Below, piece by piece: positions 963 through 9,777 of a stretch of 64,000 bases of DNA. The translations under genes were made by a program, and so were the position numbers. The notes beneath the pieces were generated by a model. That model did no database searches and was not told the DNA's origin. It worked only from the letters and a program-made list of their open reading frames with translations. Each line of letters starts with the position of its first letter. The first letter of the stretch is position 1. This DNA comes from Isosphaeraceae bacterium (GTDB taxonomy: Bacteria; Planctomycetota; Planctomycetia; Isosphaerales; Isosphaeraceae), in the NCBI GenBank assembly GCA_025356435.1, contig JANXSY010000073.1:1-64000 (forward strand), read 5' to 3'.

Positions 963-3404
963 ATGTCCGGTCCCGCCCTCCACCGCCGGCTCGTCTCAGC
1001 ACTGCTCGGGCTGCTGGCGTTCGCCTCGGTCTCCGAGGCCCAATCCAGGCCCGCGATGATGGCGAAATCGCCCTCGCTCGCGAAGTCGATCCCCGCGACT
1101 AATCTCATCTTCTACATCGAGTTTGACGGCCTCAAGGCCCACTCGGTGGCCTGGAAAAAGTCAGCGATCTATAAGCTGCTTAACGAGACGAAGCTCGGCG
1201 CGATGACCGAAGACCTCGCCGGGCAGGCCATTGAGCAGGCCCTCGCCACCACCCCCCCGGCCGGCCGGCCCAAGTCGTCGGAAGTGCTCGTGTGGCTCAA
1301 GTCTGTCGCCAACGACGGCTTTGCATTCGGACTCCTGGGATCACTCAAGAACGACCCGCCGATGTTCGTCCTGACGGTCCGCAACGCGAGCAAGAATGGC
1401 ATCAAGGCGTTGTTTGACTCGTTCGACGATCCGAAGAAGCCCGCGAGGATCGAACGTCGCGGGTCGAGGTCGCTCAAATTCAATCCGGATCCGAACAGCA
1501 ACGACGTCTTCTGGTTGGAAGGCGACGACCTCGTCTTGATGTCCTCCCCTGCGAAAGTGAATCCCGATGGCGTCATCGCCGCGATCGAGGGCAAGGCCCC
1601 GAATGTCGCCTCCAACCCGATCCGCGTCGAGCTTGCCAAGATCGAGGCGGGCTTCGAGCCGGTCTTGGTCGCGTTCGTCGATTTTTCGAAGATCCCCATA
1701 CCCCCTTCGGCCGCCCGATACGGCCTCAATGGCCTGAAGCGGATCGACTATCGTTGGGGCTTCCAGGATGACGCGACCTACAGCATCCTTCGCGTGCTGG
1801 CCCCGTCGCCGCGCCGTGGTGTGCTCTCGTGGCTTGAGGGCCCGACCTTCGACAAGAACAGCCTACCGTCGATCCCCGCCGGCTTAACGAGCTGGACGGC
1901 GTTCTCCTTCAGCCCCGGCATGGTCTGGGAGAAGTCGCTTGCGATGGTCCGCGAGGCCATGCCACCAGGGGGAGACCCGAACATGCGGTCTCAGATGGTC
2001 GTCTTCGATGACCAGATGCGGCAGGTGCTCGGCATCCGGATCAAGGAAGACCTCCTTGGCCAGCTCGGGCCGAAGTGGGTTTTTTATTTCGACACCGAGG
2101 CGATCCAGAAAGGCGACGCCAAGGCCCGCGCTGCGATAACGGTCGAACTCAAGGATCAGGCCGTGCTCGCGCAGACGCTCGACAGGTTCGTGACGATCGT
2201 GGATCAAGGCTTGAAGCAGCAGGCCCAGCGGAACCCCCGCGCGGCGGCCGCTGAATTTCGCAAGCTTACAGGCGCGACCCCCGGTTACAAGATGATCCTG
2301 CCTGCCGGCCAGATCCCAGCCAATCTCGCGGCGACTGTCAACCCGACGATCCTCGTGGGCAAGAAGCAACTGGTGATCGGGCTGAACGAGAGCCAGGCCC
2401 GCGCCGCGCTCGCCGCGAACCGATGGGTGCCCGGGCCTGACTACAAGACCCCCTTCGCCAAGCTCCCCGCTGACCTCATCATGCTCAGCGTGAGCGACCC
2501 CCGCACCTCGACCCCGCAGATGATCGCGAGCACACCGGTCTTGCTCGCCTCATTGAACATGGTGATCGCCTCGCAAGCGGGCGGTAAGCCGGCCTTCTCG
2601 CTCAAGATTGACCCATCCAAAGTTCCCACCGCCCCCGAGATCAGCCAGCGTCTCTTCCCCAGCACGATGGCCGTCTCGCTCGATCGCGAGGGCCTCAAGG
2701 TCGTCTCGCGTGAGTCGATCCCGAGCGTGTCGGTCGCTGGCGGCGGCGTTGCCCTCGGCCTGCTCCTGCCCGCCGTCCAGGCCGCGCGAGAGGCGGCCCG
2801 CCGCTCGCAGTGCGTGAACAACCTCAAGCAGATCGGCCTGGCGCTGCACAACTATCACTCGGCGTCCGACGGCTTCCCTGCCGCCGCGATCACGAGCAAA
2901 GACGGCAGGCCCCTGCTGAGCTGGCGAGTGGCGATCCTTCCCTATATCGAACAGAACGCCCTCTACAACGAGTTCAAGCTCGACGAGGCGTGGGACAGCC
3001 CCCACAACAAGGCACTCATCTCCAAGATGCCGAATACTTACCTCTGCCCGAGCCGGAACAAAGTCGAGCCGTTCACCACGACTTACCTCACCTTCGTCGG
3101 CGGCGGGGCACTCTTCAACCTCAACAAGCCGACGAGCATCCGCGACGTGACCGACGGCACCTCGAACACGATGGCCGTCGTCGAGTCGGGCAAGGCCATC
3201 CCCTGGACCAAGCCCGACGACATCACCTTCGACCCCAACGCTCCACCTTCGCTCCTCGGCGTGAGTGCCAATCACACGGGCGGCTTCAACGTCCTGATGA
3301 CTGACGGCTCGGTCCGCTTCATCAAGCTCACGATCAACCCCATCACCTTCCGCGCCCTCATCACTCGGGCCGGAGGAGAAATCATTCAGGGGAATAGCTT
3401 CTGA
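963..3404 (+). CDS. Large secreted protein with C-terminal DUF1559 (H-X9-DG prepilin-like) domain
   Basis: Signal peptide at N-terminus; about 550 aa of unassigned region, then [33 protein letters not shown] and C-terminal [18 protein letters not shown] (H-X9-DG). Confidence 0.9.
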
Positions 3405-3426
3405 ATTCGGTCGCCCGGCCCCTCAA

Positions 3427-4242
3427 TCACGAGGGGCTGGCGGCACTTTCAAAGCTCCTTGGCCGCCGCAATACGTAGAACGATCGCCCGCCCTCGCGAA
3501 CTACGTCCTCCGCGCGATATCCCGCCACGAACGCCGAGTTCAGGCCGCCCGCGATCGCCGCCCGCCACCGCTCGGCCCGCGCCGGATCGCCGTTGCGAAG
3601 CCCAACGATGTCTGCGGGGATCTCGACGAGCAGGGTGTGACTGCCATCGATCCTCCTCGACACCGGCTCGTCCGGCCCTTCGACCAATCTCAACGTCTCA
3701 TCGCCAATCGCGTCGCCTACTTTCGGAGGCCCAGGCACCGTCGGCCACTCGGCGATCAGGCGATCGGTCGGGACGCCCGCGTTGAGGGCATCTGTCCTCA
3801 ATCCGTACATATTTTCAAGATAGCGATTGCTCGAAGCCCCGAGCCGATGCAGGTTGAAATGGGCGTTGCCGGCCTGGAGCGGATCGAACGACCAGGCGAT
3901 GAAGTCGAGGCCGATCGACCGGGCATACTCTCGCTGAAACTCCTTGATTCTGGCACCAATGCCCTGCCCCTGATGGCCGGGCACGACCCCCGTCAACTGC
4001 GAGTAGAGACACCAGTGATCGTTGACCCGGCCGAGGAAGGCGAACGAGAGCCCGACCGCCTCGCCCTTCGGCGTGAACGCCCCGACCACGAGCCCGCCGT
4101 GGTGCTGCGCCCCGACCATCGTTGCGAGTGGGATGACGTAGCTCTCGTCGACCAGACCCCAGGCCCTCCGCTGGGCGTCCTGGCAGGCGACGTAATCCGC
4201 GATTGTTTCGGCGCGACGGATCGTGATCGGCGGTCGTTCCAT
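3427..4242 (-). CDS. GNAT-superfamily acyltransferase (COG3375-like)
   Basis: 271 aa; TIRRAETIADYVACQDAQRRAWG, LTGVVPGHQGQGIGARIKEFQREYARSIGLDFIAWSFDPLQAGNAHFNLHRLGA (GNAT acyl-CoA loop Q-x-x-G-x-G/A). Confidence 0.85.
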   Translation of the reverse strand: MERPPITIRRAETIADYVACQDAQRRAWGLVDESYVIPLATMVGAQHHGGLVVGAFTPKGEAVGLSFAFLGRVNDHWCLYSQLTGVVPGHQGQGIGARIKEFQREYARSIGLDFIAWSFDPLQAGNAHFNLHRLGASSNRYLENMYGLRTDALNAGVPTDRLIAEWPTVPGPPKVGDAIGDETLRLVEGPDEPVSRRIDGSHTLLVEIPADIVGLRNGDPARAERWRAAIAGGLNSAFVAGYRAEDVVREGGRSFYVLRRPRSFESAASPS

Positions 4243-4247
4243 CGTCG

Positions 4248-5390
4248 TCAGAGCCCGAGCAACAGCGCGGCCATCAGCGCTGCTCGTTCGAGGAGGCCGT
4301 CGACGAGGATGTGTTCGTTAACCCCATGAGCGTCGGCACCCGGGCAGCCGAGGCCGTCGATCGTGGGGATGCCGAGGGCGGCGGTGAAGTTGCCATCGCT
4401 CGCGCCTCCGGTCGATCCTTCGGTAAGGTCAAGGCCGAGCGTCGCTCCGATCGCCTTGACCCGCTCGTAGAGGCCGATGACGGCCGGAGTCCGTTCCATC
4501 GGCGGGCGATTGAACCCTCCGGTCAGGGTGAGTTGAATATCGGGAGTTATCGGCCTGAGCGCCCTCATTTCAGCATCGACCCGCGTGGCTTCGCTCGCCG
4601 AGATGATCCTCGCGTCGATCTCCGCCGAGGCGTGGGCCGGCACGACGTTCGACGCGCTGCCGCCCGCAATCACCCCGACGTTCAGCGTCGTGCCCACCTC
4701 GGGCCGCGCAATGGCCTGGATCGCCAGGATCTGATGCGCGAGTTCGACGATCGCGTTCCGCCCCTTCTCGGGCTCGACCCCCGCATGCGAGGCGCGGCCT
4801 TCGAGTGAGAGGTTAAACATGCCGTTCCCCTTTCGGGCCGTCTTGAGGCCGCCGTTGCTCAGCGGCGGTTCGACGACGAGCGTGAAGGCGCTCGCCAGGG
4901 CCTCAGACTCGATCAGCTTGCGAGACCGCAGGCTGCCGATCTCCTCGTCGGACGTGAACAGCACCACAAGCGGCCGGGGATGCGAAAGACCCAGCGATCG
5001 GATCGCTTCGAGCGCCGCCTCGATCAGCGTGAGGCTCGCCTTCATGTCGAAGATGCCGGGGCCGAACGCTACGTTCCCTTCGACTCGGAACGGCATCATG
5101 GCGAGAGTGCCCATTGGCCAGACGGTGTCGTAGTGGCCGATCACGAGTGCGGGCTTCTCGCCCGTCTCGGGGCCGAACCGGGCACGAACGTGCAGGCCGC
5201 CGATCTCGTTGGCGATCAGATCGACCCGACCGCCCAGCGCCTCGAATCGCTTGCCGATCGTGTGGGCCAGGCCGTCAAGTGCAGGCTTATCGAGGCTGGG
5301 CGACTCGTGCTCGACGAGCGAACGGAGTGAACTCAACAAGGCGTCGCGTCGGGGCTGGATCGCGTCGAAAAGGGCTTGTCCAAGGGGCAT
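4248..5390 (-). CDS. M20-family metallopeptidase / N-acyl amino acid deacylase (carboxypeptidase G2-like)
   Basis: Start at 5390 (MPLGQALFDAIQPRRDALLSSLRSLVEHESPS). M20 motifs GHYDTVWPMGTL, GPGIFDMKASL, FTSDEEIGS. ATG overlaps the upstream stop (TGATG). Confidence 0.87.
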   Translation of the reverse strand: MPLGQALFDAIQPRRDALLSSLRSLVEHESPSLDKPALDGLAHTIGKRFEALGGRVDLIANEIGGLHVRARFGPETGEKPALVIGHYDTVWPMGTLAMMPFRVEGNVAFGPGIFDMKASLTLIEAALEAIRSLGLSHPRPLVVLFTSDEEIGSLRSRKLIESEALASAFTLVVEPPLSNGGLKTARKGNGMFNLSLEGRASHAGVEPEKGRNAIVELAHQILAIQAIARPEVGTTLNVGVIAGGSASNVVPAHASAEIDARIISASEATRVDAEMRALRPITPDIQLTLTGGFNRPPMERTPAVIGLYERVKAIGATLGLDLTEGSTGGASDGNFTAALGIPTIDGLGCPGADAHGVNEHILVDGLLERAALMAALLLGL

Positions 5391-6511
5391 CAGCGGCAAA
5401 CTCCGTCTTCGGTCAGCGTCAGCGTCCGCAGGGCGTTGCGGACGATTCGGTCTTCGATCGGCGTCACGCCGAGCCCCGGCCCGCATGGGACGGGGATCGA
5501 CCCATTGGTGGCCAGCAGCGGCGGCTCGACGAGGTCGTCTCGATAATACTTGTCCGACCCCGAAATGTCGCCTGGCAAGGTGAAACCCGGCAGGCTCGAC
5601 ACCGCCAGGTTCGCCGCGCGACCGATCCCGAACTCGTGCATCCCCCCGCACCAGACCGGGATTCCTCGGGCAAGGCAGACGTCGTGGACCCGCTTCGCCT
5701 CAAGCAGTCCTCCCACACGGCTCACCTTGATATTGATGATCCGGCAGGCTGCGATGTCGATCGCCTTGCGGGCGTCGTCAGCCGAGTGGATGCTCTCATC
5801 GAGACAGACCGGCGTTGTCAGGATCGCTTGAAGCCGTGCATGGTCGATGATATCATCGTGCGCCAGCGGTTGCTCGATCAGGAGGAGCCCGAACTCGTCG
5901 AGCCGTCTCAGGTGGTCGCTATCGTCGAGCGTATAGGCTGAATTCGCGTCGACCTGGAGAGGTAGGTCTGGGTGTCGCTCGCGGACCGCGCGGACCACGT
6001 CAATATCCCATCCCGGCGCGATCTTGAGCTTGATTCGCTTGTAACCCTCGCCGATATATTGATCCACCAGGCGCAAGAGCGCGGGCAAACTCTCCTCGAT
6101 CCCCAGGCTCACGCCCGACGCGATCGAGACGGCCGATCCACCGAGCATGGCACCGATCGACCGCCCTTGCGCCTTGCCGAGCAGGTCCCAGCACGCCATC
6201 TCCAGGCCCGCCTTGGCGAAGTTGTTCCCCTTGACCTTCGCAGAAAATCCGACGAGTTCTTCGATCGTCCCCCACTTCCGACCGATCGCGTCCGGGAGCA
6301 GGAAATCTCTCAAGATGTGCCAACACGTCTCGATCGTTTCGGGGCAATAATACGGGTCGCTCGGACTTGCACATTCTCCCCATCCGACCAATCCATCCGC
6401 CTCGGCTCGGATCAGGATATGGTCGATGTGTGACTTCTGGCTCGAACTGGTCTTGAAGACGCGGACCAGGGGGAGTCGAACGAGGGTCAGGTCAATCCGA
6501 TCAATACGCAT
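5390..6511 (-). CDS. Enolase-superfamily o-succinylbenzoate synthase / N-acyl(succinyl)amino acid racemase
   Basis: MRIDRIDLTLVRLPLVRVFKTSS; K-x-K (IKLKI), VDANSAY, IEQPL, LDESI, NIKVSRVGG, GGMHEFGIGRAANLAV, typical of the MenC/NSAR subgroup. Confidence 0.88.
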   Translation of the reverse strand: MRIDRIDLTLVRLPLVRVFKTSSSQKSHIDHILIRAEADGLVGWGECASPSDPYYCPETIETCWHILRDFLLPDAIGRKWGTIEELVGFSAKVKGNNFAKAGLEMACWDLLGKAQGRSIGAMLGGSAVSIASGVSLGIEESLPALLRLVDQYIGEGYKRIKLKIAPGWDIDVVRAVRERHPDLPLQVDANSAYTLDDSDHLRRLDEFGLLLIEQPLAHDDIIDHARLQAILTTPVCLDESIHSADDARKAIDIAACRIINIKVSRVGGLLEAKRVHDVCLARGIPVWCGGMHEFGIGRAANLAVSSLPGFTLPGDISGSDKYYRDDLVEPPLLATNGSIPVPCGPGLGVTPIEDRIVRNALRTLTLTEDGVCR

Positions 6512-6521
6512 TTTCTCGTCC

Positions 6522-7472
6522 TCACGACACGAGAGCGAGCGCCACACTCTGCTTGAGCTTCGCCAGGCCGGTCTTGGCGACTTCGGCGGCGTCGAGCTTC
6601 CAGTAGTCGCGATTGAAGACTTCAAGCGAGAGAGCGACGCGGAAGCCTCGCGCGGCGAGGTCGCGGAGCAAGGGCGTCAGCGGGGCGATGCCGTCTCCGG
6701 GATAGACCCGCTGGGCGTCGGTGATCGACTCGCGGGCAGGATGATCGGGATAATCATTCATGTGAATGACATGGAACGAGGCCGGGCTGAGCAGCTTCAG
6801 CCCTTCGAGACTCGAACCGCCCTTGTAGAGGTGGAACACGTCGGGCAGGAGGCAGGCGTTGCGATGGCCGCTCTCGATGACGATGGCCGCGACCTCGCCG
6901 AGCCGGCTCATCGTCTTCGAGAAGCCCCAGAGTTCGGCCTGCGCGACGACTCCCGAGGCGTCACCCAGCTCGCAGATGGCCCGATAGCGCTCAGCGAGTT
7001 TCAGGACGTCGATCTCGCGGCGGTCAGTGAGGCCGACCGGGGGCGCGGCAATCCGCTTGCCGCCGATCGCGCGGACGAGGTCCATCTCGCGCTTCATCTG
7101 GTCGAGACCCTTCTTGCGGCGGGCCTCGTCGTCGACGGCCCATTCCGCGAAGCCGATTGCCGACTCGACAGAGAGGCCCGCGTCAGCGATCTGCTTCCCC
7201 AGGTCGGCGAGCGACTTCCCGGCCGCCTTGTGGGCCTCGATCTCGCGAATCCAAGGCTCGATCGCGTTATATCCCGCCTTGGCGGCGATCGCGACAACCT
7301 CGGAGATCGGCAGCTTCTGGCCTGAGATCGTGCTGGTATTCAGACAGTAGAGGAAAGGAAAGGCGGCCGCTTTCGCCTGGGGCGTTGCCTTGGCCGAGGC
7401 TGTGACGGCACCGACGCCAAGGGCCGCCGGGATCGCCGTTAGCCACTCTCTCCGCGAGAAGTCAACGCTCAC
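6522..7472 (-). CDS. Tat-signal sugar phosphate isomerase/epimerase-like TIM barrel
   Basis: MSVDFSRREWLTAIPAALGVGAV (Tat-like), then TIM-barrel xylose-isomerase-like pattern (GYNAIEPW, FHVIHMNDYP, YPGDGIAPLTPLLRDLAARGF). Confidence 0.83.
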   Translation of the reverse strand: MSVDFSRREWLTAIPAALGVGAVTASAKATPQAKAAAFPFLYCLNTSTISGQKLPISEVVAIAAKAGYNAIEPWIREIEAHKAAGKSLADLGKQIADAGLSVESAIGFAEWAVDDEARRKKGLDQMKREMDLVRAIGGKRIAAPPVGLTDRREIDVLKLAERYRAICELGDASGVVAQAELWGFSKTMSRLGEVAAIVIESGHRNACLLPDVFHLYKGGSSLEGLKLLSPASFHVIHMNDYPDHPARESITDAQRVYPGDGIAPLTPLLRDLAARGFRVALSLEVFNRDYWKLDAAEVAKTGLAKLKQSVALALVS

Positions 7473-7542: not shown

Positions 7543-9777
7543 TCAACGTCGCGGGGTCCACCACCCGCCCGTCAGGCCGTCAACCAAACTCGACCGCTCG
7601 TCGGTCCAGGCCCCCCGGCCCTCACGGGTTGGCACCCATCGAGGATCGTCAGCGATCGCGCCGAGGTCTCTCACTCGGTCGGCGACGACGACCCAGATTG
7701 TCGCTTTCTTGCCGGCCTTCCGCTCCTCTCGGGTGATCTCCACGTCGCGCCTCATCCACGAGATCAACCCCCGCTCGCGGGCCAGGCCGTCGATCACCGG
7801 TTCGAGGTCGAGATATTTGTTCGAGATGTGGAACGCGATCAGGCCGCCCCCCCGTCGTTTCGCCAGATAGAGCGACATGGCCTCGCGCGTGAGCAGGTGG
7901 ACGGGGATCGCGTCAGAGCTGAAGGCGTCGAGCACAAGGAGGTCATAGGTCGCTTCGGGAGCGTCAACGAGCCTGAGTCGGGCGTCGCCGACGACCACAT
8001 CGACCCTTGCCCGGCTATCGCGGAGATACGTGAACAGGCCCGGATCCCGCGCGATCCGCTCGACCGCCGGGTCAAGTTCGTAAAACGTCCACGCTTGCCC
8101 GTCCTTCGCATAAGCGGCCAGCGCACCGATCCCGAGGCCGACGATCGCGACGCGAGACCGAGCCGAGTCGGGGCGGTTATTCAGGGCGTCGAACACCTGT
8201 GCCCCCGGCCCACCCGGCAGATAGTAGGTGGTTGCCTCCCGCTCACGTCCGGGCTCGATCGACTGCTGCCCGTGCAGGGTCCAGCCGTGAAAGAGCCGAC
8301 GAACGTGTGCCGTGTCATCCTGCGTCACGCGCAAGAGCCCGTAAAAGTTGCGCTCGCGAAGGGAGACCCGCCCATCTTTCCCCGGTGAAAGGCCGAGACC
8401 CAGCACGATCGCCCCGACGGATAGGGCAAAGGCAATCGGGCGTCTCCAGAGCGTCTTCACGACGTAAACAAAGAGGCCAGACGCGACGCAGACGCTCAAG
8501 GCCCCCAGAGCCGTGCCCGACACCCCGCCCACGTCCGTCGCCAGCAACGAGGTCAGGCCAAGAATGAGTCCCGCGATGAGCAGGGATGTCCGCACCCGTT
8601 CCGCGCCTGGATTAGCACGCGGGACGATCGCCAGAATCAGGAGGGCCATCACGATCGCCATCGGATATTCGGCCGCCCGATCGAAGACGGCCGGGGCCAA
8701 GAAGGCGTTGAACAGGCTTCCGAGCACGCCGCCGATCGAGAGCGCGAGATAGAAGCCGGTCAGCTCCGAAGCCGCCGGTCGTCTTCTGGCCAACTCGCCA
8801 TGACAGACCATCGCCGCCGCGAAGAAGAAGGCGAGATGGATCGGCAGCCAGTACCAATCCACCAGCCCGATCGCGACCGAAGGTAGGAGCAATACCGCTA
8901 TGATCGGCAAGACGCGGGCCATGAGCGTCTGCGAGATGAACGGACGCCGGCTGAACGTCAGCACGAAGCTCAAGAGATACAGAGCGAGCGGGACGACCCA
9001 GAGGAGCGGGATCGGCGCGATGTCGGTCGAGACATACATCGTCACCCCCTGCATCAGGCTCGACGGCACGAATGCCAGGACGATCCAGATCGGCCACCGC
9101 CGTAGACCACCCGATGAGTTCCCCGGCGACCTCGGTTCGTTGTGGACGGCGCATCGCCAGGCGACGAAGGCACAGACACCGATCGAGATCGAACATATCA
9201 CGAACCCGATCCACCAACCTCGCGCCTGCGCACTCAGCGCGTGCCCCGGTTCGATCGCGAGCGGATAGGCGAGCAACGCCAACAGGCTGCCGAGATTGCT
9301 CGCCGCATAGAGCGGATAGGGATCGGCGAGTCCAGGCGGGCGAGTCGCCGAATACCAGCGCTGGAGCAGTGAGCTTGTCCCCGCGATCAGGACGAACGGC
9401 AGGCCGACCGTCGCGGCCAGACGGGCCAGCAGCCACCACGTCGGCCCGGCCCCGAAATCGTCGGGATGATCGGTCGCCCCGACGATGATCGCCGGCCTTG
9501 ACATCACGCAGAGGACCAGGAGCGAGACGTGCAACACCGCCTGGATGCGCGGTGAGAGTCGCGACGTGATGTGGGCATATCCATACCCGAGCAAGAGCGC
9601 CGACTGAAAGAAGGCGAGGCAAGTCGCCCAGACCGACGCCGACCCGCCCAGCGTCGGCAACAGCGCTTTCGCGACCATCGGCTCGACCGCGAACAGGAGC
9701 GCCGCCGCCACGAAGACTGTCAGACCGTAGAGGCGAAGGATCACGGCGGGACTTGCTCCTGAACTGTTCGGTCTCAT
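7543..9777 (-). CDS. Fused MFS/spermidine synthase-like integral membrane protein
   Basis: MRPNSSGASPAVILRLYGLTVFVAAALLFAVEPMVAKALLPTLGGSASVWATCLAFFQ..., multiple TM segments and C-terminal SpeE-like Rossmann domain (VAIVGLGIGALAAYA...YELDPAVERIA...VVVGDARL...YDLLVLDAFSSDAIPVHLLTREA). Confidence 0.88.
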   Translation of the reverse strand: MRPNSSGASPAVILRLYGLTVFVAAALLFAVEPMVAKALLPTLGGSASVWATCLAFFQSALLLGYGYAHITSRLSPRIQAVLHVSLLVLCVMSRPAIIVGATDHPDDFGAGPTWWLLARLAATVGLPFVLIAGTSSLLQRWYSATRPPGLADPYPLYAASNLGSLLALLAYPLAIEPGHALSAQARGWWIGFVICSISIGVCAFVAWRCAVHNEPRSPGNSSGGLRRWPIWIVLAFVPSSLMQGVTMYVSTDIAPIPLLWVVPLALYLLSFVLTFSRRPFISQTLMARVLPIIAVLLLPSVAIGLVDWYWLPIHLAFFFAAAMVCHGELARRRPAASELTGFYLALSIGGVLGSLFNAFLAPAVFDRAAEYPMAIVMALLILAIVPRANPGAERVRTSLLIAGLILGLTSLLATDVGGVSGTALGALSVCVASGLFVYVVKTLWRRPIAFALSVGAIVLGLGLSPGKDGRVSLRERNFYGLLRVTQDDTAHVRRLFHGWTLHGQQSIEPGREREATTYYLPGGPGAQVFDALNNRPDSARSRVAIVGLGIGALAAYAKDGQAWTFYELDPAVERIARDPGLFTYLRDSRARVDVVVGDARLRLVDAPEATYDLLVLDAFSSDAIPVHLLTREAMSLYLAKRRGGGLIAFHISNKYLDLEPVIDGLARERGLISWMRRDVEITREERKAGKKATIWVVVADRVRDLGAIADDPRWVPTREGRGAWTDERSSLVDGLTGGWWTPRR

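Follow-up and report, generated by a model that had tools for sequence, protein, structure and literature searches.

Three neighbouring genes on the minus strand of the window, the 64,000-nucleotide stretch of Isosphaeraceae DNA analysed here, probably form an irreversible converter of D- to L-amino acids that follows the known GNAT/NSAR/M20 route. The initial annotation had read the GNAT acyltransferase, the M20 deacylase and the NSAR-type racemase as one N-acyl D-to-L unit, with peptidoglycan as a suggested origin of the D-amino acids. The co-occurrence and order of the genes, the complete catalytic residues, the protein families and folds, the conserved linkage, neighbours like those of near-identical relatives of the Amycolatopsis enzyme and the absence of the men pathway all point the same way at the level of sequence. 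The GNAT protein would acylate the amino group of a D-amino acid using an acyl-CoA, most likely succinyl-CoA; we infer both the acyl group and the amino acid. The racemase would interconvert the N-acyl-D- and N-acyl-L-amino acids by a metal-dependent transfer of a proton that involves two lysines. The M20 enzyme, with its presumed stereospecificity and direction, would hydrolyse the L form and pull the equilibrium to the free L-amino acid. The pathway is thus of a known kind, with an uncharacterised branch of racemase, and it would extend to planctomycetes a described but rarely noted route of D-amino acid metabolism.

The locus and its encoded proteins

The ORF check places four tightly packed genes on the minus strand, in the order TIM barrel, racemase, M20, GNAT. 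The spacing is 10 nt from the TIM barrel to the racemase and 5 nt from M20 to GNAT. All four ORFs, both gaps and the TGATG overlap are as they had been annotated. The features are collected in Table 1.

Table 1. Features of the locus, in window coordinates
Feature	Position	Strand	Basis
Strong hairpin spanning the GNAT stop codon, close to the end of the convergent gene	3412..3442	-	sequence and fold, -24.1 kcal/mol
GNAT N-acyltransferase (predicted), 271 aa, GNAT domain and C-terminal extension of ~100 aa	3427..4242	-	ORF, AlphaFold, Foldseek
M20 metallo-deacylase, carboxypeptidase-G2-like, 380 aa	4248..5390	-	Pfam M20 and dimerisation domain
TGATG overlap of racemase stop and M20 start	5388..5392	-	sequence
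N-acylamino acid racemase, NSAR/OSBS subfamily, H-type clade, 373 aa	5390..6511	-	closest solved relative, catalytic residues, clade support
His codon CAC at the Ile293 position of Amycolatopsis NSAR (residue 292 in the window racemase)	5636..5638	-	alignment; H-type hallmark
Xylose-isomerase/IolI-like TIM barrel with twin-arginine signal	6522..7472	-	Pfam PF01261; SRREWL motif

A convergent DUF1559 gene occupies nt 963-3404 of the plus strand, and the end of the GNAT gene lies 22 nt away. The hairpin over the GNAT stop codon was not flagged in the terminator scan; it has no T run and may mark where transcription ends. Matches to sigma-70-type promoters in the region all fall within genes and are uninformative. 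Upstream of the TIM barrel, by about 70 nt and on the same strand, nt 7543-9777 encode a large protein with a fused MFS/spermidine-synthase match, and this gene might be co-transcribed with the TIM barrel. The source assembly comprises 5.6 Mb in 303 contigs and is 94% complete. The racemase tree places its genome among the Isosphaeraceae of the Planctomycetota.

The GNAT protein has no match in Pfam or NCBIfam. Its AlphaFold model, built with 46 aligned sequences, has a pLDDT of 92.7. A Foldseek search with the model matched solved GNATs including PA4866 and phosphinothricin acetyltransferases, which act on amino acid-like substrates. The product is predicted to be an amino acid N-acyltransferase.

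Carboxypeptidase G2 is the closest solved relative of the M20 protein. The roles of the zinc ligands, the catalytic glutamate and the carboxylate-binding arginine are general knowledge of the family; these residues are kept across 84 M20 sequences, save for the arginine in one of them. The protein is predicted to be an N-acyl-L-amino acid hydrolase.

The closest solved relative of the racemase is the N-acylamino acid racemase of Amycolatopsis, and the alignment is near full-length. The two catalytic lysines and three metal-binding acids are complete (K163, D189, E214, D239 and K263). Arg266, which reportedly favours the racemase reaction in the NSAR/OSBS subfamily, is likewise present. It was dropped as a decisive marker because more distant paralogues carry it too; the PDB entry 7s8w has Q at this position. 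Second copies in Isosphaeraceae (L127, L128, L133, L134 and L135) represent a distant racemase-like paralogue in which a PELG motif replaces the NSAR motif, and three of them (L128, L133, L135) align Glu or Arg at the first catalytic lysine. Another family of Planctomycetia has Leu-type NSAR/OSBS-like genes with a GMLES motif (L126, L129-L132), in genomes that lack the GNAT and have no menD over the cut-off.

Conservation of the module and the menaquinone question

The GNAT, M20 and racemase genes form a conserved module in Isosphaeraceae, which recurs in Chloroflexota and Actinomycetota. Over 59 genomes, the racemase and the GNAT are both present in 31 and both absent from 26; the remaining two, one with each gene alone, are incomplete assemblies. 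Their co-occurrence within the family alone has p = 0.0004 when relatedness is ignored. The gene cluster is more than a product of chance, as the order NSAR-M20-GNAT is kept across the Isosphaeraceae; it is also found in a bin labelled Kuenenia. The order is GNAT-NSAR-M20 in Chloroflexota and some Actinomycetota, and many Actinomycetota have a divergent M20 and a SIS-domain gene between GNAT and NSAR. The SIS-domain gene (nt 6355-6999 of locus L065, with equivalents in about 34 actinomycete loci) mostly abuts or overlaps the start of the racemase gene. One genome (G020) has the racemase split from M20-GNAT and retains all three genes. In Pseudonocardiaceae, two loci (L174, L175) have genes with about 90% identity to the Amycolatopsis NSAR that has been characterised, next to members of the same GNAT and M20 families. 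On the GNAT tree the racemase type is explained by two changes, against 20.9 with shuffled labels; thus GNAT and racemase have mostly travelled together.

That the module instead salvages N-acylated amino acids or peptide fragments from outside, with a protective or unrelated GNAT, is an unlikely reading. Oligopeptide transporter genes do lie near some relatives (L063), but no transporter was recognised by Pfam or NCBIfam beside the window's genes, and the almost perfect co-occurrence of GNAT and racemase, which mostly track each other by type, speaks against an incidental GNAT.

By its profile score the racemase would be named a menaquinone enzyme. It scores 333.8 bits against TIGR01928 (menC), over the cut-off of 200.65, so that the NCBIfam name would be o-succinylbenzoate synthase; it also matches MR_MLE domains. 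However, menD was not found by profile search in the window's genome, at the 94% completeness of its assembly, and menB has matches only far below the cut-off. The same genome carries two MqnA/D-type genes and one MqnC over the curated cut-off, which belong to the futalosine route. A second MqnC-like gene (L125, G000:C157:14203-15222) lies below the MqnC cut-off. In the 59 related genomes, no menD match exceeds the cut-off. A complete men pathway, which the initial annotation had named as the main objection to its own reading, was therefore sought and not found, and futalosine genes are present in its place. Some of the genomes that carry the clade of this racemase, described below, have menD (those of the Oscillochloris, Pseudonocardia and Kribbella loci), and others lack it (Singulisphaera, Streptomyces JH14 and Actinoplanes). 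This distribution and the survey of menaquinone genes make an OSBS role unlikely. With conserved linkage to GNAT and M20 added, it is scarcely credible that the protein is the MenC of menaquinone synthesis standing beside GNAT and M20 by chance, a role we regard as largely refuted. Since MqnA/D and MqnC are present and menD is absent, the label 'o-succinylbenzoate synthase' is probably wrong for the window racemase, as it probably is for such genes in other genomes that make menaquinone by futalosine.

The TIM-barrel protein has a different distribution. Its N-terminus, VSVDFSRREWL, is a signal of the twin-arginine type, and the initial annotation had proposed it as an exported partner of the three enzymes. 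Among the genomes examined it is adjacent to the module in three only, those of the window (G000), G001 and G009, and in G009 it stands next to the GNAT; in two others (G015, G024) it lies about 10-13 kb from the module. Most genomes with the module have it elsewhere, unlinked or on a different contig. Of 40 genomes, 36 carry a homologue, and 17 of these 36 lack the module; among the 32 good planctomycete genomes, 30 carry one. The proposed partnership gains little from these data, and we rejected the protein as a core partner on its distribution. It is very unlikely to be an indispensable fourth component that provides or detects substrate. From these sequence comparisons it is best seen as an exported protein separate from the module, with a role of its own, whose gene lies near the module in a few lineages.

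The H-type racemase clade and its possible substrate

Ser23, His31, Phe98 and His293 are invariant in 97 aligned racemase rows, some of them near-copies, and differ in the other 12. The 88 distinct H-type sequences make up one side of a branch with support of 100/99 in the racemase tree. Position 293 is His in the window racemase and the whole clade, and Ile or Leu in the NSAR sequences inspected outside it, a hydrophobic residue that is a usual feature of NSARs and not a strict definition. No NSAR sequence inspected from outside the clade carries the full signature (S23, H31, F98, H293). When the region around 293 was used as a probe of solved structures, the best match was the Ile-type Amycolatopsis enzyme, and no His-type was seen among the five alignments shown.

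The clade is spread over Planctomycetota, Chloroflexota and Actinomycetota, in a sample selected partly on the clade's own motif: the scan of named genomes favours H-type sequences because its peptide patterns include WCGGMHEF. Offset samples from the order of Oscillochloris and from Pseudonocardiaceae gave no H-type beyond the two seed genomes. We know of no enzyme of this clade that has been assayed.

Deposited Amycolatopsis variants are altered at positions 266, 291, 293 and 323, and an engineered variant, G291D/F323Y, has been applied to an N-acetyl substrate (PMC7431475). Therefore, the positions altered in the H-type plausibly touch the substrate. Published NSAR kinetics concern N-succinyl-phenylglycine or N-succinyl-phenylalanine, and N-acetylmethionine (PMC8142540). 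Because the signature is absent from the NSARs inspected outside the clade, the substrate of the H-type racemase may differ from theirs; with several positions so unlike, N-succinyl amino acids may not be its true substrate.

A variant of the converter, in which the module acts on a polar or acidic amino acid (such as D-glutamate or D-aspartate) or uses another acyl group, is a serious possibility but somewhat less likely than not; at likely pocket positions the H-type racemase departs from the NSARs that have been characterised. The M20 partner is nearest to carboxypeptidase G2, a glutamate carboxypeptidase, which fits such a substrate. A nearby amidohydrolase gene in fifteen actinomycete H-type loci fits it as well; the one searched was most like N-acyl-D-glutamate deacylase and D-aminoacylase, with the former as its nearest solved relative. 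These D-aminoacylase-like neighbours belong to some actinomycete relatives only, and none is present in the window. On the other side, the invariant GNAT residues are common to both racemase types, positions 23 and 50 are variable in other NSARs as well, and the pocket role of the signature positions is taken from general knowledge and engineered variants. That the H-type clade is a functionally distinct family, with a more basic and polar pocket that takes N-acylated polar or acidic D-amino acids handled poorly by known NSARs, we put forward with slightly more doubt. If this is true, the clade, together with a GNAT and a carboxypeptidase-G2-like deacylase of its own, would give these bacteria a pathway dedicated to salvage, of D-glutamate for instance. 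The fixed signature at likely pocket positions makes the substrate specificity directly testable.

Comparison with known systems

The D-to-L converter proposed here has its nearest precedent in the irreversible GNAT/NSAR/M20 pathway of Geobacillus kaustophilus, reportedly described by Sakai et al. in 2006. The same three gene families stand in one operon with the same logic, and the GNATs and racemases of Bacillota loci are homologous to those of the window. The window racemase differs from that route, however, in belonging to the H-type clade, and the M20 found nearby in the Bacillota loci examined is of the TIGR01891 amidohydrolase type, whereas that of the window is carboxypeptidase-G2-like.

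The Amycolatopsis NSAR/OSBS (1sja and relatives) aligns with the window racemase over the full length and shares all catalytic residues and R266. Its near-identical relatives have the same GNAT and M20 neighbours as the window. The two enzymes differ at positions 23, 31, 98, 293 and 295, and the racemase tree sets the window enzyme clearly apart from the Amycolatopsis side.

The DgcN-DgcA pathway for D-glutamate N-acylates, racemises and deacylates its substrate, and the window's module would work alike. The window racemase scores 98.6 bits against DgcA, below the cut-off of 400, and the acyltransferase of the window is instead a GNAT. For acidic D-amino acids and their amides, an irreversible pathway of racemization has been reported in which dgcN is the key gene (PMC12363236).

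The match between carboxypeptidase G2 (1cg2) and the window M20 covers almost the whole length, and the metal-binding and catalytic residues are the same. Unlike carboxypeptidase G2, the window M20 is encoded in the operon of a racemase.
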